From the NCBI GenBank assembly GCA_027485675.1, contig JAIXQP010000037.1, forward strand, positions 1 to 64,000: a stretch of 64,000 nucleotides of DNA. The letters run 5' to 3'. The DNA is from Terriglobales bacterium. GTDB taxonomy: Bacteria > Acidobacteriota > Terriglobia > Bryobacterales > Bryobacteraceae. The notes beneath the pieces were generated by a model. It ran no database searches, was not told the origin of the DNA, and was given only the letters and a program-made list of their open reading frames with translations. This document shows positions 8,500-55,883 of the stretch, piece by piece; positions within the stretch are counted from its first letter, which is position 1; every line of letters starts with the position of its first letter. Made by a program: the position numbers and the translations under genes.

Positions 8500-9312
8500 A
8501 TGCGGATGAAACGATCGTTCATGATCGCGCTGCTTTTAGGGCTCACGCTCTGGAGCGCTTTGTACGCGCAACGCCGGTTCCGGCGCGGTATGGACTGGCC
8601 GTTCCAGGAAACGGAGGACGTTACGCCGGCGGATTCGGACGAAAAGACCGAGTTCGTGTTTGCGCGCTTGCGGTATCCCAACTGGCGGAGCAGTGACCGG
8701 ATGTGGTCGATGCGCGGTTCGTGGTCGGTGGACTATCCGAAAGCGGACCGGCAGTTTGTGCAAGGGGTGCGGCGGTTGAGCCGGCTGCATGTGCGGTCGA
8801 CCGAGCAGGTGGTGGATCTCGAATCGGATGAGATCTTCAACTGGCCGTGGGTGTACGTGGTCGAGCCGGGGCATTGGGACCTGACGGACGTGCAGTGTAA
8901 GAAGCTGCGGGAGTATCTGCTGCGGGGCGGTTTCATCATGACGGATGACTTCCATGGGTCCATGGAATGGGACATTTTCATGCTTTCGATGAAGCGCGTG
9001 TTCCCGGACCGGGAGATGGTGGACATTCCAGATAAAGACCCGATTTTCCACGTGATTTACGATCTCGATAAGCGGTTCCAGGTGCCGGGTATTGTGAACT
9101 ACCCGTTTGATCAGACCTATGAGTATGACGGGGTGAAGGATACGTGGCGGGGCATCTACGACGATAAGGGCCGGCTGATGGTGGGGGCCTGCCACAACAT
9201 GGACCTGGGCGACGCGTGGGAGTGGGCGGACTCGCCCGAGTACCCGGAGCGGTACGCTTCGCTCGCCTACCGGATCGGGATCAACTACATCATTTACGCG
9301 ATGAGCCACTAA
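8500..9312 (+). CDS. DUF4159 protein, first gene of the MoxR operon
   Basis: The 270-residue product has a signal peptide or anchor (MKRSFMIALLLGLTLWSALYAQ), then a DUF4159 domain with FVFARLRYPNW, a central LREYLLRGGFIMTDDFHG and a C-terminal RIGINYIIYAM. DUF4159 is a class I glutamine-amidotransferase-like fold of unknown function that is often beside MoxR/VWA genes. Its ...GGFIMTDD stretch corresponds to the turn where true amidotransferases carry their nucleophile, and no Cys is there. The product should be periplasmic or membrane-bound. The stop shares one base with the ATG of the next gene (TAATG), so this begins the tightly packed eight-gene operon that ends at 22210. Confidence 0.82.
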   Translation: MRMKRSFMIALLLGLTLWSALYAQRRFRRGMDWPFQETEDVTPADSDEKTEFVFARLRYPNWRSSDRMWSMRGSWSVDYPKADRQFVQGVRRLSRLHVRSTEQVVDLESDEIFNWPWVYVVEPGHWDLTDVQCKKLREYLLRGGFIMTDDFHGSMEWDIFMLSMKRVFPDREMVDIPDKDPIFHVIYDLDKRFQVPGIVNYPFDQTYEYDGVKDTWRGIYDDKGRLMVGACHNMDLGDAWEWADSPEYPERYASLAYRIGINYIIYAMSH

Positions 9313-11558
9313 TGTTCGAACTCCTCTTCAAGTACCCGCTCACCGTTTATCAGAAGGGCAGCGTTGTGCTGCAGTCGGGATGGAGTGTGTGGTGGTGGGC
9401 GCTGGCGAGCGCCGTGGCGGCGGGAGTGGTGGGTTGGCTGCTGCTGACGAAATGGAATAACGGCAAGCGGGCGAAAGCGCTGGTGCTGTGGGGGCTGCAA
9501 TCGACGATGATTGCGCTGGTGTTGCTGCTGTTGTGGCAGCCGGGCATCAGCATTGCGACGCTGAAGCCGCAGCAGAACATCGTGGCGGTGCTGCTCGATG
9601 ATTCGAAGTCGATGGGGTTGGCCGAGGACGGAACCACGCGGCGCGACGAGATGAAGAAGACGCTCGAGGCCGGGTTGGCCGACGGGCTGGGCAAGAAGTT
9701 TCAGGTGCGCTATTACAAGATGGGCGCGCGGCTCGAACGGACAGGCGACTGGAAGGGGTTGACGGGCGAGGCGCCGGTGAGCCGGCTGAGCGAGGGCTTG
9801 GCGCAGATTGCGGCCGAATCCGGCAGCTTGCCGATTGGGGCGCTGGTGGTGATGAGCGATGGCGGCGATACGGCGGGCGGGATTGACCGGCAGACGTTGG
9901 CGACGCTGCGCAGCCGGCGATTCCCGGTGCATACGGTGGGCTTCGGCAAGGAGAAGGCCGAGAAGGACGTGGCGCTGATTGACGTGCAGACGCCGGCACG
10001 GGCGTTGGCCGATTCGCGGCTGGGGGTGACCGTCAGCTTTCGGCAGCAGGGCTATGCCGGGCAGCGGGCGAAGATCGTGGTGAGCGAGGAAGGCAAGACC
10101 CTGACGGCGAAGGACGTGACCCTGGCCGCCGATGGCGCGCCGCAGACCGAGAACCTGCTGTTCAACGCCGGGAACGCGGGCGCCAAGACCGTGCAGGTGT
10201 CGATTCAGGCGCTGGGTGGGGAGACGAATCCGGGCAACAACGCGCTGACACGGCTGGTGCAGGTGGAGAGCCGGAAGCCGCGGATCCTGTACATCGAGGG
10301 CGAGCCGCGTTGGGAGTTTAAGTTCATCCGGCGGGCGCTCGAAGAGGACCGGTCCATCAATCTCGTGACGCTGCTGCGGACGACGCAGAACAAGATCTAC
10401 CGGCAGGGGATCAACACCCCGACCGAGTTGGAGGGCGGTTTTCCTTCGACGCTCGATGAGCTGTTCGGCTTTGAAGGGGTGATCATCGGGAACGTGGAGG
10501 CTGGGTACTTTACGCCGACGCAAGTGGAGTTGCTGCAGCAGTTTGTGGACCGGCGGGGCGGCGGGTTGCTGTTCCTTGGCGGACGGACGACGTTGGCCGA
10601 AGGCGGCTACGGGGCGAGTCCCTTGCTCGAGTTGATGCCGGTGAATCCGGGCGAACGGCGGACGACGTTTCAGCGCGACCGGGCGACGGTGGAGTTGACG
10701 GCCGCGGGGCGGGATAGCATCTATGCGCGCCTGGAAGAGGATCCGGCGAGGAATGTCGAACGGTGGAAGAAGATGCCGTATCTGGCTGACTATCAGAACC
10801 CGGGGACGTTGAAGGCGGGCGCGGTGGTGCTGGCGGAGGCCGTGACGAGCAAGGGCCGGCTGCCGCTGTGGGTGACGCAGAATTATGGGCGTGGCCGGAC
10901 CGCGGTGTTGGCGACTTCGGGAACGTGGCGGTGGCAGATGTCGCAGCCGCTCGAAGACAAGTCGCATGAGGTTTTCTGGCAGCAGGTTTCGCGGTGGCTG
11001 GTGGGCGCGACGCCGGGACGCGTGGTGGCGGCGCTGCCGCGGACGGTGTTCAGCGATGAGCAGCGGATTCCGCTGCGGGCTGAAGTGCGGAACCGGCAGT
11101 TCCTTCCCTTGACGGATGGCTCGGTGGAAGCGCGGATCAGCGGTCCGGGCGGCGTGGCGGCGACGGTGCCGCTGCAGCCGGATCCGGTGACGCCGGGCGT
11201 CTATGTAGGCGAGTGGGGCGCGGAGAAGCCGGGGTCGTACCTGATCGAGATGTACGCGACGCGGGCCGGCGAAGAGGTGGGGCGCGATACCGTCAGCTTC
11301 CGCCGGGAAGATGGCGTGACCGAGGCGTTCCACACGCAGCAGGACCGGGAGACGCTCGAACGATTGAGCACGCAAACGGGCGGGAAGTATTGGACGCCGC
11401 AGGATGTGCGCAGGCTGCCCGAGGAGATCACGTACTCGGAGGCGGGGATTTCGACGCGCGAAGTGAAGGACCTGTGGAACATTCCGATTGTGTTCCTGCT
11501 GCTGGCGCTGCTGCGCGGCGGGGAATGGCTGTTGCGGCGGAAGTGGGGTGCGGTTTGA
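9312..11558 (+). CDS. Membrane VWA/glutamine-amidotransferase-like protein (BatA/B-like)
   Basis: The 748-residue product has two N-terminal membrane helices (about 27-46 and 56-75) and one near the C-terminus (VFLLLALLRGGEWLL). Between them are a VWA domain with the MIDAS motif D96-x-S98-x-S100 (LLDDSKSMG) and ALVVMSDGGDTAG, a beta-sandwich segment, and an amidotransferase-like domain (RILYIEGEPRWEFKFIRRAL, GGGLLFLGGRTTL). VWA proteins of this layout are usual partners of MoxR ATPases. I start at 9312 because it overlaps the DUF4159 stop as TAATG; a longer frame to 9216 would lie inside DUF4159. It overlaps the next gene as TTGA. Confidence 0.85.
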   Translation: MFELLFKYPLTVYQKGSVVLQSGWSVWWWALASAVAAGVVGWLLLTKWNNGKRAKALVLWGLQSTMIALVLLLLWQPGISIATLKPQQNIVAVLLDDSKSMGLAEDGTTRRDEMKKTLEAGLADGLGKKFQVRYYKMGARLERTGDWKGLTGEAPVSRLSEGLAQIAAESGSLPIGALVVMSDGGDTAGGIDRQTLATLRSRRFPVHTVGFGKEKAEKDVALIDVQTPARALADSRLGVTVSFRQQGYAGQRAKIVVSEEGKTLTAKDVTLAADGAPQTENLLFNAGNAGAKTVQVSIQALGGETNPGNNALTRLVQVESRKPRILYIEGEPRWEFKFIRRALEEDRSINLVTLLRTTQNKIYRQGINTPTELEGGFPSTLDELFGFEGVIIGNVEAGYFTPTQVELLQQFVDRRGGGLLFLGGRTTLAEGGYGASPLLELMPVNPGERRTTFQRDRATVELTAAGRDSIYARLEEDPARNVERWKKMPYLADYQNPGTLKAGAVVLAEAVTSKGRLPLWVTQNYGRGRTAVLATSGTWRWQMSQPLEDKSHEVFWQQVSRWLVGATPGRVVAALPRTVFSDEQRIPLRAEVRNRQFLPLTDGSVEARISGPGGVAATVPLQPDPVTPGVYVGEWGAEKPGSYLIEMYATRAGEEVGRDTVSFRREDGVTEAFHTQQDRETLERLSTQTGGKYWTPQDVRRLPEEITYSEAGISTREVKDLWNIPIVFLLLALLRGGEWLLRRKWGAV

Positions 11559-12478
11559 GGAAGCTACTGCTGTTGGGATCGTTTTGCGCGGGGCTGCTGC
11601 CGGGGACGACGTGGTACATCACGGTGGCTGGACTCGGCGGCGAGCCGGAGTACGAGACGCGGTTCAAGGGGTTGGCGGCGGAACTGGATAAGTCCGTGCG
11701 CGCCACGCCGGACGCGAAGGTGACGACGTTGAGCGGGCCGGAAGCCACCAAGGCCAAGGTGGAAGCCGCGATCGACGAAGCCGTGAAGGGCGCCAAGGCC
11801 GAGGATGTGTTGGTGGTGACGCTGATCGGCCACGGGACCTTTGACGGGACGGACTACAAGTTCAATATTCCGGGGCCGGACCTGACGGCGGCCGAGTTGG
11901 CGGGGAAGCTCGAGTTTGTCCCGTCGCGGCGGCAGGTGGTGATCAACACGACTTCGGCGAGCGGCGCTTCGATTGAGCCGCTGCGTCGGGAGTACCGGGC
12001 CGTGATCACCGCGACGCGGGCGGGCACGGAGAAGAACGCCACCGTGTTTGGCCGGTTCGTTGTCGAAGCGTTTCGGGACCCGGCTGCGGATACGGATAAG
12101 AACGAGGCGGTGAGCGCGCTCGAAGCGTTCCAATACGCGGACAAGAAGACGACCGCGTTCTATGAAACGCAGAAGCGCCTGGCGACGGAGCACCCGATGC
12201 TCGAAGACACCGGGAAGGGGACCGGCGTGCGGGCGCCGGCGCCGGACAATGGCCAGGGGCTGTTGGCGCGGCAGTTGCCGCTGCTTCGGTTCGGCTCCTT
12301 GCAGCAGGCGGCGAAGAGCCCGGCCAAGCAGGCGCTGCTCGCCCAGCGGGAGTCGATTGAAGGGCAGATCGACAAGTTTAAGTACGAGAAGGCCGCGATG
12401 CCGGTGGAAGAGTACAAGAAGGCATTGGGAAGGCTGCTGCTGCAACTGGCGCAGGTGCAGGAGGAGATCGACAAGTGA
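11555..12478 (+). CDS. Caspase/C13-like secreted protein lacking the catalytic Cys
   Basis: The 307-residue product starts at TTG 11555, which overlaps the previous stop as TTGA; the next residues, RKLLLLGSFCAGLLPG, form a signal peptide. The next 150 residues look like a clan CD (caspase/legumain C13) fold: YITVAGLGGE, then VLVVTLIGHGTFDG with the expected catalytic H93, then a strand VVINTTSASGAS. In active members the end of that strand carries Cys (as in DACHSG or ACESG). Here N131-T-T-S-A-S-G137 has none, so I infer a pseudo-protease or a changed mechanism. The C-terminus is a helical, coiled-coil-like tail. It overlaps the next gene as GTGA. Confidence 0.65.
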   Translation: MRKLLLLGSFCAGLLPGTTWYITVAGLGGEPEYETRFKGLAAELDKSVRATPDAKVTTLSGPEATKAKVEAAIDEAVKGAKAEDVLVVTLIGHGTFDGTDYKFNIPGPDLTAAELAGKLEFVPSRRQVVINTTSASGASIEPLRREYRAVITATRAGTEKNATVFGRFVVEAFRDPAADTDKNEAVSALEAFQYADKKTTAFYETQKRLATEHPMLEDTGKGTGVRAPAPDNGQGLLARQLPLLRFGSLQQAAKSPAKQALLAQRESIEGQIDKFKYEKAAMPVEEYKKALGRLLLQLAQVQEEIDK

Positions 12479-14640
12479 GACTCCTGGCGCTGGGTTTGCT
12501 TGTGATGTCGGCAGCCTGGGCGCAGGATTGCCGGGGCTTGCACCGGCGCGGGAAACTGGCCGAAGCGCGGGCGTGCCATAGCCGGATGGCGCAGAGCGGG
12601 AACGCGCTGCAGCAGGCCGAGGCGTTCTGGTATTTGAACGACGCCGAGAGCGCGAACAACTTCTTCCGGGCGGCTGTGAAGGCGCAGCCGAAGAATCCGG
12701 AGCCGCGGGTGCGGTGGGGCCGGTTCTACCTCGAACGCAACAAACGGGAGGATGCCGCGGCGCTGTTTGAAGAGGCGCTGGCCGTGCAGGCGGATTACCC
12801 GCCGGCGCTGATCGGCATGGCGCTGGTGGCGGCAGGATCGTTCGATGCCAAGTCGGTGGAGTTCGCCGAGCAGGCGCTGAAGAAAGACCCGAAGGCGTAC
12901 GAGGCGCATGAGGTGTTGGCGCGGTTTGCGATTGAGGATGGCAACCCTACCGAAGCCGGGGTGCAGGCCGATAAGGCGTTGGCGATTTCGCCCGAGGCGC
13001 TCGATGCGTTGATGATCCGCGCGACGATCGACTGGATGGAGGGCAAGCCGGGGACGGAGTGGATCGACCGGCTGAACAAGGTGAATCCCGCGCATGCCGA
13101 AGGCTACGCTTTGGCGGCAAGGATCTTTGTGATCAACCGGCGCTATGAGGAAGGCATCAAGCTTTACCGCAAGGCGATGGCGTTGAATGCGGAGTATCTG
13201 CCGGCGCGTTCAGAGCTGGGCGTGAACCTGATGCGGCTCGGCGAAGAGGACGAGGCTAAGCCAATGCTCGAGGCTGTCTATGAGGCCGGCTTCCGCGACG
13301 CGGCCACCGTGAACACGTTGAAGCTGATGGATTCCTACAAGAACTTCGTCACGATCAAGAAGGGCAAGATCATCCTGCGCCTCGATAAGAAAGAGGCCGA
13401 CCTGCTGCGGCCCTACTTCGAGCGGGAGCTCGAACGGGCCGTGGACGTCTTCGAGAAGAAGTATCAGCTCGTGCTGGACCGGCCGGTACAGTTGGAGGTC
13501 TATCCGAATCACGAGGACTTCGCCGTGCGAACGATGGGTCTGCCGGGGTTGGGCGCGCTGGGCGTGACCTTCGGCAACGTGGTGGCGATGGACTCGCCTT
13601 CGGGACGCAAGCCGGGATCGTTTCATTGGGCCAGCACCTTGTGGCACGAGTTGAGCCATGTGTACGCGCTGGCGGCGACCAAGCACCGGGTGCCGCGCTG
13701 GTTCACCGAGGGCCTGGCCGTGCACGAGGAGACGGCGGTCGATCCCGAGTGGGGCGACCGGCTCGACCCGGGCGCCATCCGCGCGATGAAGGATAAGAAG
13801 CTGCTGCCGATTGCCACGCTCGACAAGGGGTTCACGCGGCCGAGCTATCCGAACCAGGTGATTGTCAGCTACTTTCAGGCCGGGAAGATTTGCGACTACA
13901 TTGAAGGCAAGTGGGGTTGGCAGACACTGCTCGCCATGCTGCGCGACTTCAGCACCGGGGCGGGAACGCCGGCGGTGGTGGAGAAGCACCTGAAGATTAA
14001 GCCCGAGGAGTTCGACAAGGAGTTCCTGGCTTGGCTTGAGAAATCGACCGAGTCGCAGGTGAAGGGCTTTGAGGAGTGGACCAAGCGGCTGCGCGCGTTG
14101 AGCGCGGACGTGAAGGCCAAGAATTGGGACAAGGTGATTCCCGAAGCCGAGGCGTTGGGGAAGATCTACCCGGACTATGTGGAGGCGGGCAGCCCCTACG
14201 AGATCCTGGCCGACGCTCATCTTGAAAAGAAAAACACGCCGGGGGCCATTGCGGCGTTGAACGGCTACGCCAAGGCCGGCGGCCGGTACCCGGCGACGCT
14301 GAAGAAACTGGCTAAGTTGCTCGATGATGCCGGACAGCCCGAGCAGGCGGCCCGGGCGCTCGAACGGATTAACTTTATCTATCCCGTGCAGGACGAAGAG
14401 ATGCATCGGCTGCAGGGAGAGCTTTGGCTGAAAGTGGGCAATACCGATAAGGCGATTCGCGAGTTTCAAGCATCTGTCTTTTCGAAACCCATCGACGCCG
14501 CGACTTCCTATTACAATCTAGCCAGAGCCTACCGCGCCGCCGGGCAACTCGACCAAGCCCGCGACAATCTCGTTTCCGCCCTAGAAGCCGCGCCCAGTTT
14601 CCGCCCGGCCCAGAAACTTCTCCTGGAGCTATCCAAATAA
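12475..14640 (+). CDS. TPR-repeat secreted gluzincin metalloprotease
   Basis: The 721-residue product has a signal peptide (MRLLALGLLVMSAAWAQ), an N-terminal set of TPR repeats to about residue 285, a peptidase domain and more TPRs to the end. The zinc motif is H391-E-L-S-H395, followed by E412 in WFTEGLAVHEE. This is the peptidase MA-like/DUF1570 arrangement. The TPR arms suggest it binds a protein partner, perhaps within this operon. The start is GTG at 12475, overlapping the caspase-like gene stop as GTGA. The stop is directly adjacent to the moxR ATG at 14641. The function in the operon is inferred only from position. Confidence 0.8.
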   Translation: MRLLALGLLVMSAAWAQDCRGLHRRGKLAEARACHSRMAQSGNALQQAEAFWYLNDAESANNFFRAAVKAQPKNPEPRVRWGRFYLERNKREDAAALFEEALAVQADYPPALIGMALVAAGSFDAKSVEFAEQALKKDPKAYEAHEVLARFAIEDGNPTEAGVQADKALAISPEALDALMIRATIDWMEGKPGTEWIDRLNKVNPAHAEGYALAARIFVINRRYEEGIKLYRKAMALNAEYLPARSELGVNLMRLGEEDEAKPMLEAVYEAGFRDAATVNTLKLMDSYKNFVTIKKGKIILRLDKKEADLLRPYFERELERAVDVFEKKYQLVLDRPVQLEVYPNHEDFAVRTMGLPGLGALGVTFGNVVAMDSPSGRKPGSFHWASTLWHELSHVYALAATKHRVPRWFTEGLAVHEETAVDPEWGDRLDPGAIRAMKDKKLLPIATLDKGFTRPSYPNQVIVSYFQAGKICDYIEGKWGWQTLLAMLRDFSTGAGTPAVVEKHLKIKPEEFDKEFLAWLEKSTESQVKGFEEWTKRLRALSADVKAKNWDKVIPEAEALGKIYPDYVEAGSPYEILADAHLEKKNTPGAIAALNGYAKAGGRYPATLKKLAKLLDDAGQPEQAARALERINFIYPVQDEEMHRLQGELWLKVGNTDKAIREFQASVFSKPIDAATSYYNLARAYRAAGQLDQARDNLVSALEAAPSFRPAQKLLLELSK

Positions 14641-15663
14641 ATGTCCACTACCTTTTCTACCCTCGACACCTCCGAGCTACGGGCTCGGGTCGAGCGGTTC
14701 CAACAAGCCGAAGCCCGGATCGTGGAGCAGGTGCGCCGCGTGATTGTCGGCCAGAATGACGTGATTGACCAGGTGCTGATTGCGCTCTTCGTCGGCGGCC
14801 ACTGTCTCATCACGGGTATGCCCGGCACGGCGAAAACCTTGCTGGTGCGGACGGTGGCGACGACGCTGGGTCTGACGTTCAAGCGCATTCAGTTCACGCC
14901 GGACCTGATGCCGACCGACATCACGGGCACCGACATCATCGAAGAGGATTCGACCACGGGACGCCGCGTCTGGACGTTCGTCGAAGGGCCGATCTTCACC
15001 AACATCCTGCTGGCGGACGAAATCAACCGCACCCCGCCGAAGACGCAAGCGGCGCTGCTCGAAGCGATGCAGGAGAAGTGCTGCACCGTGCGCGGGCACC
15101 AGTACACGTTGCCGAAGCCGTTCTTCGTGCTGGCGACGCAGAACCCGATTGAACTCGAAGGCACCTACCCGCTGCCCGAAGCGCAGCTCGACCGCTTCCT
15201 GTTCAACGTGCTGCTCGACTACCTGCCGGCCGAGCAGGAGCTGCAGGTGCTGACGATGACGACCGGCGTGAAGATCGACGACGCCGAGCCGATCACGACG
15301 GCCGAGGAGATTCTCTCGATGCAGGAGCTGGTGCGGATGGTGCCGGTGGCCGAGAGCGTGGCGCGCTATGCGGTGTCGCTGGTCCGGGCGACCCGGCCGA
15401 CCGATGTATCGGCGCCGGACATTGTGAAGAAGTATCTGAACTTTGGCGCCAGCGTCCGCGCGATTCAGAACATCGTGCTGGCCTCGAAGGCGCGGGCGTT
15501 GATGCAGAAGCGGTATCACGTTTCCTACGAAGATGTGCGCGCCATGGCCATTCCGATCCTGCGGCACCGCGTGCTGCTGAACTTCCACGCCGAGTCGGAC
15601 AAGATGACGGCCGATACGGTGCTGAGCAAGATGATCGAGAGTGTTCCCGTGCCCCGCGACTAA
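14641..15663 (+). CDS. MoxR-family AAA+ ATPase
   Basis: The 340-residue product is a full-length MoxR AAA+ ATPase. Walker A is G59-M-P-G-T-A-K-T66, Walker B is LLADEINR, followed by the family signature TPPKTQAALLEAMQE and sensor ATQNPIELEGTYPLPEAQLDRF. The C-terminal lid carries GASVRAIQNIVLASKARAL. MoxR proteins are cytoplasmic hexameric chaperone-like ATPases that act with VWA-domain proteins on assembly or maturation of membrane and periplasmic complexes. Its neighbours supply VWA partners: DUF58 directly downstream, BatA after that and the membrane VWA protein upstream. It is separated from the upstream gene by 0 bases and from DUF58 by 5. Confidence 0.95.
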   Translation: MSTTFSTLDTSELRARVERFQQAEARIVEQVRRVIVGQNDVIDQVLIALFVGGHCLITGMPGTAKTLLVRTVATTLGLTFKRIQFTPDLMPTDITGTDIIEEDSTTGRRVWTFVEGPIFTNILLADEINRTPPKTQAALLEAMQEKCCTVRGHQYTLPKPFFVLATQNPIELEGTYPLPEAQLDRFLFNVLLDYLPAEQELQVLTMTTGVKIDDAEPITTAEEILSMQELVRMVPVAESVARYAVSLVRATRPTDVSAPDIVKKYLNFGASVRAIQNIVLASKARALMQKRYHVSYEDVRAMAIPILRHRVLLNFHAESDKMTADTVLSKMIESVPVPRD

Positions 15664-15668
15664 ATCCA

Positions 15669-16559
15669 ATGGATCAGCGCTTCCTTCAACCCGGCGTGCT
15701 CGCGGCCATCTCGAATCTCGAGTTGGTGGCGAAGACTGTGGTGGATGGGTTCATCTCGGGCCTGCACCAGTCGCCGCACTTCGGCTTCTCGCAGGAGTTC
15801 GCCGAGTACCGGATGTACACGCCGGGCGACGACCTGCGGCACGTCGATTGGAACGTGTTTGCCCGGACCGAGCGGACCTACCTCAAGAAGTTCAAGGGCG
15901 AGACGAACTCCCGGTTGACCATCCTGCTCGACGCTTCGGCTTCGATGGCGTTCGGCTCGCATACGATTCCGAAGATGGACTATGCACGCTATCTGGCCGC
16001 CTCGCTCGCCTACCTCGGCAGTCAGCAGCGGGACGCGGTGGGGGTGCTGGTTTTTGACGACGACATCCGCGAGTTTGTGACGCCGAGTTCGCGGTCCGGC
16101 CAACTGCGCCGCACGCTGTTTGCCCTTGAAAAGGCCGAGCCCGGCAAACGCACCGACTTCGGCCGGCCGTTCTATCACTTCCAGGAGATGATGCGGAACC
16201 GGCGCGGCATGGTGGTGGTCATCAGCGACTTCTATGAAGACCCCGAGGTGATCGTGAAGGCGATTGAGCCGCTGCGGTGGCGCGGCAATGACGTGGTGCT
16301 GTTTCATGTGCTCGACCCGGTGGAGCTGCAGCCGAAGTTCGACGGGCCGATGCTGCTGATTGATAGCGAGACGCAGACGTCAATTGAAACGACGCCCGAG
16401 TACGCCCGCGACGAGTACAAAGCCAAGATTGACGCGCACACCGAGGCGCTCGCGGCCAAGGCGCGGGGCGCGGGGCTGACCTATCATTTGTCCCCGACGG
16501 ACCGGCCGCTTGATGAGTGCCTGCGCGAGTTCCTCGTCATCCGGCAGGGGAGGCTCTAG
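15669..16559 (+). CDS. DUF58 VWA-type protein
   Basis: The 296-residue product carries the DUF58 signature R-M-Y-T-P-G-D-D-L-R-H-V-D-W (residues 48-61) and then a VWA-like domain with MIDAS residues D88-A-S90-A-S92. DUF58 proteins are the standard partner encoded next to MoxR. There is no membrane helix, so it is probably cytoplasmic and may link the ATPase to the membrane VWA proteins. The stop at 16557-16559 is directly followed by the ATG of the BatA-like gene at 16560. Confidence 0.92.
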   Translation: MDQRFLQPGVLAAISNLELVAKTVVDGFISGLHQSPHFGFSQEFAEYRMYTPGDDLRHVDWNVFARTERTYLKKFKGETNSRLTILLDASASMAFGSHTIPKMDYARYLAASLAYLGSQQRDAVGVLVFDDDIREFVTPSSRSGQLRRTLFALEKAEPGKRTDFGRPFYHFQEMMRNRRGMVVVISDFYEDPEVIVKAIEPLRWRGNDVVLFHVLDPVELQPKFDGPMLLIDSETQTSIETTPEYARDEYKAKIDAHTEALAAKARGAGLTYHLSPTDRPLDECLREFLVIRQGRL

Positions 16560-18548
16560 ATGGCTTTTCTCGCGCCATGGTTTCTCGGCGGGGTGGCCCT
16601 GTTGGGGCTGCCGGTGTGGCTGCATCTGTTGCAGCAGCATAAGAACACGCCCCTGCAGTTCCCTTCGCTGATGTTCTTTGAGAAGCGGACGATGACTTCG
16701 ACGCGGCAGCGGCGGCTCCGCTATATAGCACTTCTGGTGCTCCGTCTGCTGCTGTTGCTGCTGCTGGCGATTGCCTTTGCGCAGCCGTACTTTGACCAGA
16801 ACGTGCCCATCGCCTCCGGCAAGCGGCTGAAGCTGATCGCCGTCGATAACTCGTTTTCGATGCGGCGCGGCACCGCTCTTGAAGACGCCAAGCGCGAGGC
16901 GATGAGCCAGGCGACGGGCCGGGTGCAGGTGTTGAGCTTCGGCTCCGGCGTACGTGAAATGGGCCCGATCAGCGACGACCCTTCGGCGCTGCGCACGGCG
17001 ATTGCGGCCATCACGCCGGGCGATGAGCGGTCGAGCTTCGCCGAACTGGCGCGGACGGCGCGGAGTATCTCGGAAGCCAACCGGACGCCGGTGGAGATTC
17101 ATCTGTACACCGATCTGCAGAAGACCTCGCTGCCGGGGCGCTTTGCGGATCTGCAACTGCCCGCTGATGCCAAGTTGGTGGTGCACGAGGTGGGCCCGAA
17201 GGATCTGCCGAACTTCTATGTGGAGAGCGTGCGGACGCCGGGCCGGATCTTTGATCCGAAGACGGTGCGGATGCAGGCGACCGTGGCGAGCCTGCATACC
17301 GCGGCGGCGACGAAGAAGGTTTCGGTGCTCGTCGATGGGCGCGAGGTCCATACGAAAGAGGTGACGATTCCGCCGGCGGGACGGGCGACGGTGGAGTTCA
17401 TTGGTCTCGAAACACCCTATGGCTGGCGGCGGGGCGAGGTGCGGATTGATGGCGCCGATGCCTTCGGCAACGATGATACGGCGCGGTTTGCCGTCGAGCG
17501 GTCGGACCCGCGGCGCGTCGTGTTTCTGCGCAATGCCCGGGATAACCGGAGCGAACTCTACTACGCGGCGGCGCTCGATTCGGCGGCTTCGGGTTCGTTC
17601 AAGGCCGACGTGGCGACGACCGATGCGCAACCGAATCTGCAGAATGTGGCGTTCGTGGTCCTGGCCGATCCGGGGGCGCTGGGGCAGGCGCTCGAGAGCA
17701 GTTTGCAGGAGTATGTGAAGGGCGGCGGGAACCTGTTGATTGCCGTGGGTCCGAATACGGCGGTGGCGAATAAGCTGCCGGTGAGCGGATTGACGGTGGG
17801 TGGTTCGCGGTTGTCGGACCGGTCGAAGGAGCTGTTCCAGACGATCGCGCAGCGGGACGAGACGCATCCGGTGATCGAGAAGGCGACGGGCATTGAGACG
17901 GTGAAGTTCTATCAGTTGGCGCAGGTGGAGCCGGGCAACGCGAAGGTGCTGGCGAAGACGGCGGCCGGGCAGCCCGTGCTGCTCGAACAGCAGCAGGGGG
18001 ACGGGCGCATTCTGGTGTTGACGTCGGGGCTCGATAACCTCGGCAACAATCTGCCGATTCATCCCGCGTTTCTGCCGTTTGTCGAACGGACGGCGCAGTA
18101 CTTGAGCCGGCAGGAGGAGTCGACGCAGGCCGTGGTGGTGGGCGAGACGATTGAACTGCGCGCGGCGACGGACCGCGCCGTGACCGTCGAAGTGCTGGAC
18201 GCCAAGGGGAACCGGGCGCTGAGCCTGGACCAGGCGGCCAAGGCGACCAGCTATCAGCCGGGCGAAGAGGGTTTCTACGAGGTCCGTCGCAGCAGCGGAC
18301 GGCAGACGCTGGTGGCCGTGAACGCGGACCGGCGGGAATCGGATTTTGACCGGCTCGACGCCGAGACCGTGGCGTTGTGGCAGGCGACCGGGGTGCCGGA
18401 GGCGGCCGCGAATACGGCGGGCCTGCCGGCGGGTCAGAAGCGGGAACCGTGGCCGCTTTGGCCGTACCTACTGTTTTTGTTAGCCGCAATTACCATTGCG
18501 GAATCGATCTATGCAACGCGCTACCTGACGCGCGAGGAGGCCGCATGA
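16560..18548 (+). CDS. BatA-domain/VWA membrane protein
   Basis: The 662-residue product begins with the BatA (aerotolerance regulator N-terminal) domain: a helix at about 5-23, the HKNTPLQFPSLMFFEKR loop and a second helix at about 55-73. A VWA domain follows with D96-N-S98-F-S100. Then come beta-sandwich and amidotransferase-like segments (NLLIAVGPN, ILVLTSGLDNLGN) and a C-terminal helix (LWPYLLFLLAAITIAESIY). In Bacteroides the Bat proteins are linked to aerotolerance, but the role in this phylum is not established. It resembles the product of 9312-11558 in layout, so the operon encodes two related membrane VWA proteins. It overlaps the next gene as ATGA. Confidence 0.88.
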   Translation: MAFLAPWFLGGVALLGLPVWLHLLQQHKNTPLQFPSLMFFEKRTMTSTRQRRLRYIALLVLRLLLLLLLAIAFAQPYFDQNVPIASGKRLKLIAVDNSFSMRRGTALEDAKREAMSQATGRVQVLSFGSGVREMGPISDDPSALRTAIAAITPGDERSSFAELARTARSISEANRTPVEIHLYTDLQKTSLPGRFADLQLPADAKLVVHEVGPKDLPNFYVESVRTPGRIFDPKTVRMQATVASLHTAAATKKVSVLVDGREVHTKEVTIPPAGRATVEFIGLETPYGWRRGEVRIDGADAFGNDDTARFAVERSDPRRVVFLRNARDNRSELYYAAALDSAASGSFKADVATTDAQPNLQNVAFVVLADPGALGQALESSLQEYVKGGGNLLIAVGPNTAVANKLPVSGLTVGGSRLSDRSKELFQTIAQRDETHPVIEKATGIETVKFYQLAQVEPGNAKVLAKTAAGQPVLLEQQQGDGRILVLTSGLDNLGNNLPIHPAFLPFVERTAQYLSRQEESTQAVVVGETIELRAATDRAVTVEVLDAKGNRALSLDQAAKATSYQPGEEGFYEVRRSSGRQTLVAVNADRRESDFDRLDAETVALWQATGVPEAAANTAGLPAGQKREPWPLWPYLLFLLAAITIAESIYATRYLTREEAA

Positions 18549-21500
18549 GTGCTCTCGAACTACTCGACCAATATCTGCGTCAATTGGAGGCTCGGCTCCG
18601 ATTGGCGGCCTGGACGCGCGGCGCCGCCGTGGCGGCCGTGGTCGCGCTGGGGATGACGGTGTTGCTGGTTCTGGTGGCGAACGCCTTTGCCTTTGCCGAT
18701 GCGGTGATGGGCGTGGCGCGCTTCCTGCTCTTCGTCGCGATCGCGCTGGCAATCACGTTCGGCGTGGTGATTCCGCTGCTGCGGATCAACCGGCGGCGGG
18801 CGGCCACGCAGGCCGAGTCGAGGTTCCCGGAGTTCCGCGAGCGCTTGCTGACCTTCATTGAACGGCGGGATAAGAACGACCCGTTCCTTGAACTCGTCGC
18901 GGCCGACGCCTTGCCGGTGGCGCAACAGGCCAACACGGCGGCGCTGGTTTCAACGGCGCGGCTGGCGGCGTTCTGCGCGGCGGCGTTGATGGGCGTGGGC
19001 ATTCTCTTTTGGCTCATTCAGGGCGGGCCGGGATTCATGGGCCACGGGGCGAGCCTGCTGTGGATGGGGGCGCCGAAGACGGGCGGGTCCGGAGCGTTTT
19101 ATGAAGTGGTGGTGAAGCCGGGAACCAAGACAGTGCGGAAGCGCGCCGATGTGTTGATTTCGGCCCAGACGCTGGGCTTCTCGCCGCAACAGGTGCAACT
19201 GTTCGCGCGCTTCGGCAACTCGGCGAAGTGGGAACAGTCGGCGATGCAGCCGCAGTTGCAGGGTACGGGATTTGAGTTCCTGTTTGCGGGTTTGCCGGAT
19301 TCTGTCGAGTACTATGTCGCCGCGGGGCCGGTGAAGAGTCCGGTTTATAAGTTGACGGCGTTGGAGCTGCCGGGGGTGAAGCGGATCCGGGTGACCTATC
19401 AGTATCCGCGGGGCTTGGGTATGCCGAACGTCACCGAGGAGAACGGGGGCGACCTGCGGGCGCTGATCGGGACCGAGGCGAACGTGGAAGTGGAGTTCGA
19501 TAAGCCGATGGCGAAGGGCCTGCTGTTTATTGACAGCGAGAAGCAGGTGGCGTTGACGCCGGGCGACGGGACGTGGGCCTCGGCGAAGGTGAAGATCGAG
19601 AAGGATGGTGTCTACCATGTGGCGGCGGTGGAGCCGAGCGAAGTGGTGCGCCTGAGCGATGACTACTTCATTGAGGCGCGAAAGGACGAAGAGGCGGTTC
19701 TGAAGATCCGCAAGCCGGGCAAGGACGCCAAGGTGAGCCCGCTTGAAGAGGTGCCGATTGAGGTGGAGGCCACCGACGATTTCGGCCTGCGCGAAGTGAA
19801 GCTGTTCTATTCGGTGAACGGCGGCGAGGAGCGGATGGTGAACCTGTTGACGCAGCCGAACGCGAAGTCCGTTAGCGGGAAGGCAATGCTCTCGCTCGAA
19901 GAGTTCAAGCTGGTGCCGGGGGATGTCGTTTCGATCTGGGCTTCGGCCAAGGACGCGAGCCGGACGACGCAGACGGACATGTACTTCCTGGAGGCGCAGC
20001 CTTACGAGAAGGAGTACTCGCAGAGCCAGCAGAGCGGCGGCGGGGGCGGCGGCGGCGAGCAGGATGACAACAACGTCACCAAGCGGCAGAAGGAGATTAT
20101 CGCGGCGACTTGGAACCAGCTGCGGAACCGGTTTGCGGATCCGAAGGCGACGGCGGAGAACGCGCGCTTCCTTTCGGAGACGCAGGCCAAGCTGAAGGAG
20201 CAGGCCAAGAACCTGGCGACGCGCATGAACCGGCGCGAACTTTCGGGGTCGAACGAGGAGTTCAAGAAGTTCGAGAAGGACATCAGCTCCGCCGTGGCCG
20301 CGATGGGCGTGGCGGCGGACAAGCTGAAGGCGCAGGGCTTCAAGGATGCGCTGCCGCATGAGCAGCAGGCGCTGCAGCATCTGATGCGGGCCGAGAGCGT
20401 GTTCAAGCAGATTCAGGTGGCGATGGGCCAGCGCGGCGGCGGGGGCGGTGGGGGTGGCGGCGCGGCGCGCGACCTCGAGAACCTGTTCGACCTGGAGCTC
20501 GATACCGAGAAGAATCAGTACGAGACGAACCAGAGCCAGCAGTCGGCTGAGCAGCGGGCCAAGGAAGTGGATGAGGCGATGCAGCGGCTCGAGCAGTTGG
20601 CGCGCCGGCAGCAGGAGTTGGCGCAGCAACAACAGCAGGGCAAGCAGAGCTTCCAGCAGAAGTGGCAGCAGGAGCAGTTGAAGCGCGAAGCCGAGGAGTT
20701 GAAGCGGCAGATGGAGCAGTTGGCGCGCGGCGAGCAGTCGCAGCAGCAGCAGGGTCAGCAAGGGCAGCAGGGTCAGCAAGGGCAGCAGGGTCAGCAAGGC
20801 GGCCAGCAGCAGCGCCAGCAACAGCAACAGGCCTCGGCGTCGTCGCGGCTGAAGCAGATGGCCGGGCAACAACAGCAGCAGGATCCGCGGCTGAAGGAAG
20901 CGATTGACCGCCTCGAACAGGCCACGCGGAACATGCAGCGCGAAGACCAGCAGCAGCGGGCCGCCGAGCAGCTACGGGAGGCCGGCAACCAGTTGCGCGG
21001 CATGCGCCAGGAGCAGGCTTCGAGTTCGATGGGCAGTATTGCCGATCGCACTAAAGAGTTGGCCGAACAGCAGCAGGCGCTGTCGGATCAGATTCAGAAG
21101 GAGTTTGGCACCAAGGCCGGCGAACGGGCGCAGCAGGGTCAGAAGATGGAGATCCAGCGGCAGATGGGCCGGACCAAGCAGCAGATGGGCGAGAAGATCG
21201 CTCAGCTTGAGCGGGATATGCAGCAGGCTGCCGGCGAGATGCAGGGGTCAAACAAGGAAGCCGCCCGGAAGTTGCGGGAGGCGCTGGGGCAGATGCAGCA
21301 GGACCAGATGGCCATCCGCATGAAGTATGGGGCGCAGTACTTTAACCAGGGCTTGGCGCCGTATCTCGGGCAGCGCGAGGAGTCGCTCGCCAAGGACATG
21401 CAGAAGCTGCGGGAGAAGATTGGCGCCGCGCAGGAGGCGATGAACAAGCCGGGGCAGCAGGGCACCAAGATGGAGCAGGGGTTGGCCGGGGTGGAGCGTC

Positions 21501-22210
21501 TGCGGGAGCAGGTCCGGCAGATGACGGCGCGCGGCCAGCAGCAGGGGCAGCAAGGCCAACAGGGCCAGGGCCAGCAGCCGGGGCAACAGGGCCAAGGTCA
21601 ACAGCAGGGCCAGCAAGGGCAGCAAGGCCAGGGTGGTCAACAAGGTCAACAGGGCCAGCAGGGGCAGGGTGGCCAGCAAGGGCAGCAGAGTCAGCAGGGG
21701 CAAGGCGGCCAGCAGGGTCAGGGCGGCCAGCAGGGTCAGGGCGGCCAGCGCGGCGGCGGGCAGCAGCCCGGCGACCGGGAAGGCCAGCAGACGGCCGGCG
21801 GCCAACGCGGCGACGAGCGCGGCATGTCAGCGATGAACCGCGGCGACCGTCCCCTCCAGTCCATGGCGGGCGGGGCGAGCCGGGCGTGGCGCGAAGGCAT
21901 GCAGAGCTTGAATGAACTGCGCTCCGCCGCCGGCGATTCGCCGGAGACGCAGCGCGAGATCGATGCCATGATCCGCGAGATGCAGAAGCTCGATCCCAAC
22001 AAGTTCCCCGGTAACCCGGCGCTGCTTGAACAGATCCGGACGCAGTTCCTGCCGAGCCTCGAACAGTTGGAGTTGAAGCTGCGGCGCGAACTCGAAGGCC
22101 AGCAGACGGGCAATGTCCGCAGCGGTATCCAGGAGCGGATCCCGGCGGGCTACGCCGATCAGGTGGCGGACTACTTCCGGCGTCTCAGCCGGGGCACGGC
22201 GAAGAAGTAA
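18545..22210 (+). CDS. DUF4175-like large membrane protein with Gln/Gly-rich tracts
   Basis: The 1,221-residue product has two N-terminal membrane helices (about 24-46 and 55-75) and a third near 137-158, then beta-sandwich domains to about residue 480. The rest is mostly predicted coiled coil, rich in Gln, with glycine tracts near 500 and 630, a GQQGQQ tract near 732-760 and a long one near 997-1075. The layout fits DUF4175-type proteins found at the end of MoxR/Bat operons. I start at the ATG at 18545, which overlaps the BatA stop as ATGA. The long extracytoplasmic part could span the periplasm or bind the VWA proteins; this is inference. Confidence 0.78.
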   Translation: MSALELLDQYLRQLEARLRLAAWTRGAAVAAVVALGMTVLLVLVANAFAFADAVMGVARFLLFVAIALAITFGVVIPLLRINRRRAATQAESRFPEFRERLLTFIERRDKNDPFLELVAADALPVAQQANTAALVSTARLAAFCAAALMGVGILFWLIQGGPGFMGHGASLLWMGAPKTGGSGAFYEVVVKPGTKTVRKRADVLISAQTLGFSPQQVQLFARFGNSAKWEQSAMQPQLQGTGFEFLFAGLPDSVEYYVAAGPVKSPVYKLTALELPGVKRIRVTYQYPRGLGMPNVTEENGGDLRALIGTEANVEVEFDKPMAKGLLFIDSEKQVALTPGDGTWASAKVKIEKDGVYHVAAVEPSEVVRLSDDYFIEARKDEEAVLKIRKPGKDAKVSPLEEVPIEVEATDDFGLREVKLFYSVNGGEERMVNLLTQPNAKSVSGKAMLSLEEFKLVPGDVVSIWASAKDASRTTQTDMYFLEAQPYEKEYSQSQQSGGGGGGGEQDDNNVTKRQKEIIAATWNQLRNRFADPKATAENARFLSETQAKLKEQAKNLATRMNRRELSGSNEEFKKFEKDISSAVAAMGVAADKLKAQGFKDALPHEQQALQHLMRAESVFKQIQVAMGQRGGGGGGGGGAARDLENLFDLELDTEKNQYETNQSQQSAEQRAKEVDEAMQRLEQLARRQQELAQQQQQGKQSFQQKWQQEQLKREAEELKRQMEQLARGEQSQQQQGQQGQQGQQGQQGQQGGQQQRQQQQQASASSRLKQMAGQQQQQDPRLKEAIDRLEQATRNMQREDQQQRAAEQLREAGNQLRGMRQEQASSSMGSIADRTKELAEQQQALSDQIQKEFGTKAGERAQQGQKMEIQRQMGRTKQQMGEKIAQLERDMQQAAGEMQGSNKEAARKLREALGQMQQDQMAIRMKYGAQYFNQGLAPYLGQREESLAKDMQKLREKIGAAQEAMNKPGQQGTKMEQGLAGVERLREQVRQMTARGQQQGQQGQQGQGQQPGQQGQGQQQGQQGQQGQGGQQGQQGQQGQGGQQGQQSQQGQGGQQGQGGQQGQGGQRGGGQQPGDREGQQTAGGQRGDERGMSAMNRGDRPLQSMAGGASRAWREGMQSLNELRSAAGDSPETQREIDAMIREMQKLDPNKFPGNPALLEQIRTQFLPSLEQLELKLRRELEGQQTGNVRSGIQERIPAGYADQVADYFRRLSRGTAKK
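20753..20800 (+). repeat. 18-base tandem repeat encoding GQQGQQ
   Basis: Inside the DUF4175-like gene the unit GGTCAGCAAGGGCAGCAG occurs at 20753-20770 and again, identical, at 20771-20788, followed by a partial third copy. The identity at DNA level suggests recent slippage expansion rather than old codon bias. Confidence 0.8.
21535..21765 (+). repeat. Long Gln/Gly-coding low-complexity repeat
   Basis: About 230 bases of the DUF4175-like gene encode GQQ, GQG and GGQQGQ units (cagcaaggccaacagggccag-like). Copies are irregular in length. The tract is likely to vary between strains and to be unreliable in short-read assemblies. Confidence 0.8.
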
Positions 22211-23021: not shown

Positions 23022-23027
23022 AGATTA
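23022..23027 (-). promoter_or_regulatory. Candidate -10 element (TAATCT) for the M23 gene
   Basis: On the minus strand TAATCT lies nine bases before the ATG at 23012. It overlaps the end of the NHL gene, so the M23 gene may have its own promoter with a very short leader that contains CGGGAG. Confidence 0.35.
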
Positions 23028-25697
23028 GCGCAGATAGAAGGGGGTGCTGGCTTCGGTGGAGGCCTGGCCGATGCGGAGGCGGACCGGGTGCGCGCCGGCC
23101 GGGAAAAAGCCGGAGGGCGAGCGGAAGTTGATTTGAATGACGCCGGGGAAGCCGGGCGCCGCGCCGATCCAGACGATGGGCGCCGCGGCGCCGCCAATCG
23201 TGAGTTGCGCCGGCAGCACCGGGGTGGGGAAGGGCGCGTCGATGGTCAATTGGCCGTCGACCGGTTCGGGGTTCAGGCGGCCGATGCCGGTGGCGTAGAG
23301 GACCAGAACTTCGCCGCGGGGCGCCGGATTGAGGGCGCTGTTCACCGACCCGTCCGGATGGATCGCGCCGACCGGGAAGAAGCCGGGGACGGCCTCGGCC
23401 AGCGTACCGGCCTGGGTGGCGCGGAGTTGATTCCGATGGCGGACTTCGATGACGGCGCGGCCGCTGGTGCCCGTGCGGTTGGGGACCTGCAAGTTGATCT
23501 GCGACTTCGAGACGTAGAGCAGCGGCGCGGCAATGCCGTTGACGGTCACTTCCACGTCGCCGAGCCGGGTGCTGAGCTGGTTGTTAAGCGCGGGGGCGAT
23601 GATGGGGTCCGCCGGGCCCAGATCGACGCCATAGAGGGTGAGCAGCATGCCGGGGGCGAGTTGGGTCTCCTGATTGGTGCCGACGTGGACGAAGCGGAGT
23701 TGCGGGGTTTCGACGGCAGGCGGCGGGACGGCATCGTTGTTGGGAACGAGGCGGCGAATGCGATGGTTGGCGGCGTCGGCGATCAGCAGGTTGCCGGCGG
23801 AGTCGAAGGTAAGGCCGGAGGGGAAGTTCAGCCGGCCATCGGCGGCGGGTCCGCCATCGCCGGAGAAGCCGGGCAGGCCCGTTCCGGCGATGGTGGTGGC
23901 GTTGCCTTGCGGGTCGATGCGGCGGATGCGATGGTTGGCGGTGTCGGCGACGAAGACGGCGCCGTCGGCGGCCACGGCTAGGCCCGAGGGGCTGGCCAGG
24001 GAGTCGTCGGCGAGGGAGGTGATGGTGCCGGTGAGATCGATGCGGCGAATGCGGTTGTTGCCGGAGTCGGCGATGTAGAGCTGGCCGGTGCGGTCGAAGG
24101 CGAGGGCGGTGGGCAAGTTGAGTTGGGCGAAGACGGCGACGTTGCCATCGCCGCTGAAGCCGGCTCCGTTGACGGTACCGGCGTAGGTGGTGATGATGCC
24201 GGCCATCGAAACGCGGCGGACGCGATGGTTCTTCGAGTCGGCGATGAAGAACTCGTTTGAGTTGGGGTCGGCGAGGACGGCGGAGGGGGAGTCGAGCATG
24301 GCGGCGGGCGCCGGGCTGCCGTCGCCGCGGAAGCCGTTGAAGTTGTTACCGGCGATGGTGGTAATGACGCCGTTGACGGCGATGCGGCGGATGGCGTGGT
24401 TGGCGGTGTCGGCGATGAGGAGATTGCCGAAGCGATCGAAGGAGAGGCCGCGGGGGCCGTTGAGCTTGGCCAGATGGGCGGGGCCACCATCGCCGGAGAA
24501 GCCGGGGACGCCGGTTCCGGCGATGGTGGTGATGGAGCCGTCGAGGGAGATGCGGCGGATGCGATGGTTCCGCTCGTCGGCGATGAACAGGTTGCCGCTG
24601 GGGTCGTAGGCCACGGCGGCGGGATTGTTGAAGCGGGCGGCGTCGGCGGGGCCGTTGTCGCCGGTCAGGGTGTTGCCGCTGGCGCCGGCGACGATGGTGG
24701 CCTGGTTGTTGGTGCTGATGCGATGGACGACGGCGCGGTTGGCGTAGAAGGCGTTGCCGCGGTTGTCGACCGTGACGGCCGGGCCGCCGGCGGGAAGCAG
24801 AATGACTTCGCCCTGGCCGGTACGCTTGAGGGCGGCGTCCTTGCGGGCGTCGGCGATAAACAGGTTGCCGAGGGCATCGACGGCGACGCCGGTGGGGGAG
24901 AACAGCGGCTCGCGGATGGCGGCGGCGGGGGCGTAGGCGCCGATGAGGCCGCGGGCGATGCGGCGGATGCGCTGGGCGCCGGCTTCGGCGACGAGCAGGC
25001 CGCCTTGCGGGTCGATCCAGAGCCCGGCGGGGTTGCGAAGGCTCGAACGGATGGCGGCGATATCGTTGGCGCCGTAGCCGGGGGCGCCGGTGCCGGCGTG
25101 GAGGCGGAAGGTGCCGTCGGTCGAGACCGAATAGATGCGGTGGGCATCGAAATCGGAGATGTACAGGGTGCCATCGGGATCGACGGCGACGTTGCGGGGG
25201 GTGGTGAAGCGGATGGTGGTGGCGGGAGAGCCTTCGCTGGGCGCGTTGGCGGGGTTGGCGCCGCCGCCGGCATAGGTGGTGATGCGGCCTTGCGGGGTGA
25301 CGCGGCGGATGACGCGGTTGCCGAGGTCGGCGATGTAGAGGTTGTTGGCGCGGTCGAGGGCGAGGCCGTAGGGGGAGGCGAGTTGAGCGTCGGCGGCGGG
25401 GCCGTTATCGCCGGAGTAGCCGAGGGTGCCGTTGCCGGCGACGGTGGTGAGGATGCCGGCCGGGGAGAGGCGGCGGACGCGGTGTTCGGCGGCGTCGGCG
25501 ATGTAGAGATTGCCGTCGGTATCGAAGGCGAGGCCTTCGGCCTGGGTGAGGAGGGCTTGGAGGGCGGGGAGGTTATCGCCTGCGTTGGCGGAGCCGGCGA
25601 TACTCTGGATCCGGTACGCCGGTGGGGGGATCTGGGGAAAGAGGAGACTGGAGTAGACCAGCCCCCAGATAGCCATATTCCGTTTCTGACCGCGCAT
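23025..25697 (-). CDS. Secreted NHL-repeat beta-propeller with Solibacter-type C-terminal domain
   Basis: The 890-residue product has a signal peptide and about a dozen NHL repeats with the core LYIADAANHRIRRI, often followed by TTIAGTGxPGFSGDGGPA. The last 210 residues form the beta domain typical of Solibacter-group surface proteins (LYGVDLGPAD, VTVNGIAAPLLYVSKSQINL, EVLVLYATGIGRLNP). The ATG at 25697 is chosen because GAGGAAAA stands about ten bases upstream on the minus strand; the reading frame further upstream is an artefact antisense to the protease gene. NHL propellers usually mediate protein or ligand contact. It diverges from the matrixin-like gene with 72 bases between starts. Confidence 0.85.
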   Translation of the reverse strand: MRGQKRNMAIWGLVYSSLLFPQIPPPAYRIQSIAGSANAGDNLPALQALLTQAEGLAFDTDGNLYIADAAEHRVRRLSPAGILTTVAGNGTLGYSGDNGPAADAQLASPYGLALDRANNLYIADLGNRVIRRVTPQGRITTYAGGGANPANAPSEGSPATTIRFTTPRNVAVDPDGTLYISDFDAHRIYSVSTDGTFRLHAGTGAPGYGANDIAAIRSSLRNPAGLWIDPQGGLLVAEAGAQRIRRIARGLIGAYAPAAAIREPLFSPTGVAVDALGNLFIADARKDAALKRTGQGEVILLPAGGPAVTVDNRGNAFYANRAVVHRISTNNQATIVAGASGNTLTGDNGPADAARFNNPAAVAYDPSGNLFIADERNHRIRRISLDGSITTIAGTGVPGFSGDGGPAHLAKLNGPRGLSFDRFGNLLIADTANHAIRRIAVNGVITTIAGNNFNGFRGDGSPAPAAMLDSPSAVLADPNSNEFFIADSKNHRVRRVSMAGIITTYAGTVNGAGFSGDGNVAVFAQLNLPTALAFDRTGQLYIADSGNNRIRRIDLTGTITSLADDSLASPSGLAVAADGAVFVADTANHRIRRIDPQGNATTIAGTGLPGFSGDGGPAADGRLNFPSGLTFDSAGNLLIADAANHRIRRLVPNNDAVPPPAVETPQLRFVHVGTNQETQLAPGMLLTLYGVDLGPADPIIAPALNNQLSTRLGDVEVTVNGIAAPLLYVSKSQINLQVPNRTGTSGRAVIEVRHRNQLRATQAGTLAEAVPGFFPVGAIHPDGSVNSALNPAPRGEVLVLYATGIGRLNPEPVDGQLTIDAPFPTPVLPAQLTIGGAAAPIVWIGAAPGFPGVIQINFRSPSGFFPAGAHPVRLRIGQASTEASTPFYLR

Positions 25698-25769
25698 ACG
25701 AGTGTTTTCCTCGGTTGGTAAGTGGGAACGAGCCGGAAAAGCTCTCAGCGGTGATCGATATGGCAGTAT

Positions 25770-55807: not shown

Positions 55808-55883
55808 GAGTCGGTAGCTCAGTTGGTAGAGCATCGCACTTTTAATGCGGTGGTCCCGGGTTCGAGCCCCGGCCGACTCACCA
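55808..55883 (+). tRNA. tRNA-Lys (anticodon TTT)
   Basis: The 76-base gene folds as a full cloverleaf. The acceptor stem pairs GAGTCGG (55808-55814) with CCGACTC, followed by the discriminator A and an encoded CCA (55881-55883). The D arm is TAGCTCAGTTGGTAGAGCA, the anticodon loop is CTTTTAA and the T arm has CCGGGTTCGAGCCCCGG. The TTT anticodon reads AAA and AAG lysine codons. Confidence 0.97.

Follow-up and report, generated by a model that had tools for sequence, protein, structure and literature searches.

What are a caspase-like protein and a TPR protease doing in the middle of an operon that otherwise looks like a MoxR/VWA system? The question is raised by eight genes on the + strand, at positions 8500-22210 of the window, by which we mean the whole 64,000-nucleotide stretch of Terriglobales bacterium contig JAIXQP010000037.1 that was analysed.

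Layout and parts of the eight-gene run

The genes follow one another as DUF4159, VWA/GATase, pseudo-legumain, TPR-gluzincin, MoxR, DUF58, BatA-type and DUF4175-like, with junctions of -1, -4, -4, 0, +5, 0 and -4 bases (TAATG with a 1-bp overlap, TTGA and GTGA with 4 bp each, 0, a 5-bp gap, 0, and ATGA with 4 bp). The count of eight genes, the gaps of at most 5 bases and each junction agree with the sequence-only reading of this DNA, whose parts list was also found correct by ORF calls and Pfam. In the features below, motif counts for genes 2 and 4-7 use rows without a gap at the site, and the His and Cys sites of gene 3 are counted over 153 of 155 rows, rows gapped there being left out.

8500-9312, +: gene 1, DUF4159 protein with a hydrophobic N-terminal leader (Pfam DUF4159, E 2.1e-46)
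9312-11558, +: gene 2, VWA/GATase, a membrane VWA protein with a GATase1-like domain
9597-9611, +: MIDAS motif DDSKS of VWA/GATase (DxSxS in 107/107 readable rows of 149)
10272-11015, +: GATase1-like domain of VWA/GATase, residues 321-568 (structural match)
11555-12478, +: gene 3, pseudo-legumain (the caspase-like protein of the sequence-only reading), TTG start
11831-11833, +: His93 of the GHG motif (His in 153/153 rows with a letter)
11954-11956, +: Ser134 at the catalytic Cys position (S 135, P 10, N 4, A 3, T 1, Cys 0 of 153)
12089-12124, +: EF-hand-type loop, residues 179-190 (alignment of 155)
12475-14640, +: gene 4, TPR protein with a gluzincin (Peptidase_MA_2) domain, GTG start (Pfam TPRs and Peptidase_MA_2, 9e-12)
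13645-13659, +: HExxH motif, residues 391-395 (148/148 readable rows of 167)
14641-15663, +: gene 5, MoxR AAA+ ATPase (Pfam AAA_3, E 8.5e-61, 204 bits)
14815-14838, +: Walker A motif GMPGTAKT of MoxR
15669-16559, +: gene 6, DUF58 protein with a VWA domain (Pfam E 4.1e-44)
15930-15944, +: MIDAS motif DASAS of DUF58 (DxSxS in 108/108 readable rows of 110)
16560-18548, +: gene 7, BatA-type membrane VWA protein with three TM-like segments (Pfam BatA 7.3e-15, VWA_2 5.8e-8)
16845-16859, +: MIDAS motif DNSFS of the BatA-type protein (DxSxS in 103/103 readable rows of 105)
18545-22210, +: gene 8, DUF4175-related membrane protein of 1221 aa with a Gln-rich tail (Pfam DUF4175, 6e-5)

Besides the BatA-type protein, gene 2 also codes for a VWA protein of the membrane. 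The nearest bacterial match of its VWA part in structure comparison is a Bacteroides aerotolerance-related protein; at the top of the Foldseek list for this protein stood matches with a TM-score of 0.09-0.14, and a second look with VIA-align was clear. Pfam GATase1_like scores 24.1 bits on this protein (3e-5), below its cut-off of 27, and no Cys stands among the invariant or nearly invariant columns of the GATase1-like domain. The DUF4175-like protein, with 25.6% Gln in residues 561-1130 and three TM-like segments, likewise scores below the Pfam cut-off in the window (21.6 bits vs 27.3), and its relatives in three loci (L193, L196 and L220) reach 44.5-51 bits. For this family the open-licence literature, as far as excerpts go, offers AdvA of A. 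baumannii; neither PADLOC nor NCBIfam supplied a useful name for those parts of the operon that lack one. In MoxR the Walker B motif reads ADEIN or ADEVN in 116/116 readable rows of 118. Hydrophobic N-terminal leaders occur on several of the eight proteins; that of DUF4159 was judged by eye, no segment rising above the 1.6 hydropathy threshold.

The sequence-only reading had named internal promoters or terminators as a point against a single operon. A scan for sigma-70-type promoters gave 1 site across the run against 1.6 expected, and a simple terminator scan gave 7 against 10.8, the single + strand one lying at the start of gene 1; within the scope of these scans, there is no excess of such sites inside the run. 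We infer that the eight-gene set is co-transcribed. A sugar-isomerase-like TIM-barrel gene lies 70 bases upstream, and the downstream neighbour is a convergent M23 peptidase gene. Among 40 relatives, the M23 and YyaL flanking genes recur in L054 only and the isomerase-like gene in four loci, so that the three flanking genes searched are mostly non-recurrent, which supports the limits of the operon.

Gene order and co-inheritance in relatives

Across 194 sources scanned, many of them too short for the operon, 92 loci were complete in that all seven genes other than DUF4159 are present (87 distinct loci, some places having been reached by two routes). In 92/92, the VWA/GATase, pseudo-legumain, TPR-gluzincin, MoxR, DUF58, BatA and DUF4175 genes stand in identical order, one locus having an additional MoxR segment upstream. 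Conserved order in relatives rules out a chance run of unrelated genes and, on this comparative evidence, the eight touching genes are an old, strictly ordered operon common to many Acidobacteriota and Gemmatimonadota. The position of DUF4159 varies among the 92: upstream, between gluzincin and MoxR, in both places (26/92), at the end, or undetected. A second DUF4159 gene between gluzincin and MoxR was seen in L160, L167, L178, L203 and others.

By strong matches (E up to 1.5e-16 for pseudo-legumain, up to 6e-54 for VWA/GATase), 200 genomes of the window's class divide into 87 with both proteins, 2 with VWA/GATase only, 0 with pseudo-legumain only and 111 with neither. Because the pseudo-legumain occurs 0 times without VWA/GATase and the reverse is found in two, we reject the idea that the caspase-like and TPR genes entered a Bat operon recently. 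The sequence-only reading, which called these genes "inserted" and "additions", has to be amended here: they belong to an old set in one order. It had also held that a caspase-like and a TPR gene never found next to moxR in related genomes would speak against it, and the opposite is seen, both being kept in one cluster with moxR in relatives.

The caspase-like gene is present in 111/121 genomes and 70/76 genera of the window's family; of the 10 genomes without it, one (G016) carries the true TPR-gluzincin, located where a contig begins, and the other nine give weak TPR matches only. In the class, 88/200 genomes match the pseudo-legumain, 87 of them strongly; no or weak match in 112/200 implies that the machine is dispensable in many relatives, a point against our preferred explanation. 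At the level of the phylum, 144/396 genomes match at E 0.001 (113 strongly, E <=2.9e-50, and 31 weakly), and in the phylum of one Gemmatimonadota MAG the figure is 109/200, 103 of them strong. Loci for reading were hand-picked (20+20+20) from longer match lists for long contigs and diversity. The same order was found in 20/20 of the chosen 18-kb family loci, DUF4159 being undetected in three, and in the 20 class loci it is kept as far as contigs or stretches extend.

A scan with the TPR-gluzincin returned, among the best 80 of 545 relatives, Acidobacteriota, Gemmatimonadota and seven entries titled Gammaproteobacteria; none among these 80 is Planctomycetota by title, which is no proof of absence. 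Loci in named genomes, chosen among the same best 80 of 545, have the same order where contigs allow; in one (L255) there is no pseudo-legumain within its stretch and VWA/GATase lies at the opposite end. We do not take the seven titles as a wide spread in Gammaproteobacteria, those of L232-L234 being doubtful. A quick tree of four genes from 90 loci mostly follows taxonomy and places the L232 and L234 operons among Gemmatimonadota, and many genomes of the Gemmatimonadota sample also belong to the class of L233's genome; the Gammaproteobacteria title of L232-L234 is probably wrong. The class of L209's genome has a strong match in only 2/143 genomes, L209's own included. No second copy was found in the window's own genome, none of whose other five MoxR loci shows the set. 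One of its loci (L259, contig C39) combines MoxR and DUF58 with weak matches to BatA and VWA/GATase, and is perhaps a conventional Bat cluster. Keyword searches of the open-licence literature found no described precedent for the operon.

Partial clusters say more about which members go together. The gluzincin is missing from four clusters (L162, L164, L165 and L176), which means that it is not always needed and counts against our preferred explanation. Five clusters (L163, L166, L168, L171 and L175) run DUF4175-like, VWA/GATase, pseudo-legumain, the last two side by side, and show no MoxR within the stretch read; three DUF4175-like proteins scanned from such clusters matched no Pfam family. 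The genomes of L163, L166 and L175 have a full-type cluster elsewhere beside the MoxR-less one. Furthermore, L170 and L172 are two-gene units of TPR-gluzincin then pseudo-legumain, the rest of the operon being absent from the stretch read. Taken with the co-inheritance above, these MoxR-less clusters, gluzincin-less clusters and pairs suggest that the pseudo-legumain would partner first with VWA/GATase and second with the gluzincin.

In the order scan, nine loci longer than 15 kb with pseudo-legumain and MoxR are without one core gene or more. Three have no TPR-gluzincin, as is also true of the shorter L165 (<15 kb), and five have no DUF4175, one of these also no BatA; among the five, true absence, cut contigs and frameshifts are not separated. 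In L053, one of the nine, BatA was missed by the order scan though found by tblastn. Two loci (L116 and L189) have about 6 kb of extra sequence between the pseudo-legumain and TPR-gluzincin genes.

A predicted legumain fold without its cysteine beside an intact gluzincin motif

The label "caspase-like" given to gene 3 by the sequence-only reading gives way to legumain-like, the nearest group being legumain (C13): legumains lead by fold and C13 by Pfam, and a caspase proper is rejected. The Pfam scan of the window proteins gave gene 3 no family, and it has no C13 match at E 0.1; 47/60 members match C13, the best at 9.8e-9. The predicted model shows the legumain fold, with a C-terminal helical part at residues 256-306. 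Ser134 aligns opposite C139 of metacaspase-4 and opposite Cys in 18/20 alignments with outgroups from hand-picked stretches, the Cys of the other two lying one column off through an insertion; 20/20 outgroups have C-x-S-G, as against Cys in 0/153 pseudo-legumains. With its His kept and its Cys gone, the protein is, by its residues, filed as a non-peptidase homologue of C13. Residue 135, next to the lost Cys, is Cys in 11/153 relatives.

Two further traits set the pseudo-legumain apart from legumain and C13, in addition to the loss of the catalytic Cys in 153/153: the C-terminal helical part and an EF-hand-type loop. The loop has Asp at position 1 and Glu at position 12 in 155/155, D/N at position 3 and N/D/S at position 5. 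Position 6, which is Gly in just 60/155 and Glu in the window, counts against calcium binding. We nevertheless consider the loop a putative calcium site.

The neighbouring gene 4 scores 45.7 bits on Peptidase_MA_2 against a cut-off of 32.4. Downstream of HExxH, the pattern of an E-G motif is found in 140/167 relatives; 8 have HExxH without it, and 19/167 have no HExxH and may be partial. The gluzincin is likely, from its conserved motif, to be the operon's one working protease. The claim of one active and one inactive protease is thus borne out at the level of conservation (HExxH 148/148; Cys 0/153), and at that level alone.

A candidate envelope machine and its alternatives

We propose, with about an even chance of being right, that one operon encodes one MoxR/VWA (Bat/cmd)-type machine for maturation of the cell envelope, equipped with an exported module of pseudo-legumain and gluzincin. 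In this proposal, the AAA+ chaperone MoxR and the soluble VWA protein DUF58 would act in the cytoplasm, upon the inner-membrane BatA-type and VWA/GATase proteins and the DUF4175-like scaffold. DUF4159, the Cys-less legumain-fold protein and the TPR-gluzincin may be exported subunits that these VWA proteins hold on the outer side of the membrane. The pseudo-legumain would be a structural subunit, probably calcium-bearing, and not a cysteine protease; its first partner would be VWA/GATase, and in most clusters it might also serve to present substrates to the gluzincin, likely the only protease at work here.

The cmdA-cmdD operon reportedly holds DUF58, DUF4159 and VWA-type genes and is said to be without a pseudo-legumain or gluzincin. 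We propose the envelope role because loss of this operon (RL3499-RL3502), a broadly conserved MoxR operon of four genes in Rhizobium leguminosarum that is distant and is likened here by description alone, harms the envelope and cell shape (excerpts of PMC3893208 and PMC5700661). More ambitiously, and tentatively enough that we would call it unlikely in full, this may be a new envelope machine of Acidobacteriota and Gemmatimonadota, in which an AAA+ ATPase works via VWA-MIDAS receptors on a calcium-dependent, substrate-presenting pseudo-legumain of a TPR metalloprotease. MoxR/VWA operons are common and few of their clients are known; here the gene set itself points to putative exported partners kept across two phyla, and the targets of MoxR-VWA systems beyond the membrane become testable by pull-downs. 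It would also provide a bacterial example of a former peptidase that has become an obligate structural partner.

The alternative that survives best, albeit an unlikely one, is a Bat-type system for oxidative or general stress, the exported proteins being there for redox or stress protection and not for envelope maturation. Homologues of BatA, DUF58 and MoxR are present; indeed, MoxR adjoins DUF58 and the BatA-type gene as in Bat operons, with ATPase and MIDAS motifs intact, and this is kept in relatives, so that the earlier assignment of the three to a known type was sound. TPR proteins occur in Bat operons too (excerpt of PMC5700661). Compared by published gene content, the present operon has in addition VWA/GATase, pseudo-legumain, TPR-gluzincin, DUF4159, the DUF4175-like gene and a fixed order, and its MoxR is gene 5 of 8, as opposed to the front of the operon in Riemerella anatipestifer (excerpt of PMC11834572). 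According to the same excerpt, the resistance of R. anatipestifer to heat and oxidative stress is linked to MoxR via the bat operon, and moxR deletion raises bat transcription. Against a stress system, however, Bat deletion in Leptospira biflexa brought no detected change in growth, shape or oxidative tolerance, as an excerpt of PMC3557215 has it, and the Pfam scan of the operon proteins recognised no redox domain or motif. The same deletion result counts against the envelope proposal too.

Somewhat less likely is a machine for metal or cofactor insertion, like the methanol dehydrogenase MoxR or CoxD, in which MoxR and VWA proteins load a periplasmic metalloenzyme, with the gluzincin, or some other protein, as client. 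Enzymes that depend on MoxR members for activation include methanol dehydrogenase, NO reductase and CO dehydrogenase (excerpt of PMC3893208), a role of MoxR in placing the MIDAS metal has been postulated (excerpt of PMC3557215), and the window's MoxR weakly matches Mg-chelatase-type models; yet Pfam finds no oxidoreductase in the operon, and there is little recurrence among the flanking genes searched. Improbable, in turn, is the idea that pseudo-legumain and gluzincin have a function apart from that of the MoxR/VWA genes, with which they would share a transcript and nothing more. The MoxR-less clusters and the gluzincin-pseudo-legumain pairs described above would fit this, but the pseudo-legumain's constant company with VWA/GATase in the class and the single order in 92 loci across phyla argue against it.

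It is very improbable that the legumain-like protein works as a serine hydrolase by means of the Ser that replaces the Cys: Ser stands there in 135/153 and the His is invariant, but the remaining 18/153 have P, N, A or T. We give hardly any credence to a MoxR-VWA ternary system acting in conflict or defence, which the MoxR and VWA genes with a caspase-related protein in one cluster recall (excerpt of PMC7159879), given that PADLOC matches are weak and to AAA or TPR only, AAA_3 (204 bits) far outscores bpMoxR (48.9 bits, E 5.3e-13, above that model's own cut-off), the partners here are presumably exported, the gene order is constant, the tree is mostly taxonomic and the legumain is dead by loss of its catalytic Cys. 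A beta-propeller partner was not recognised among the eight proteins.

Elsewhere in the window, the only Rfam match at gathering score is a tRNA gene (55808-55880, +). An ORF of 616 aa (25770-27620, +) contains HELGHALGLGHS, which we take to be a matrixin-like zinc protease motif; on paper it overlaps a long antisense ORF (23025-27086), the product of which is presumably an NHL-repeat-like protein.
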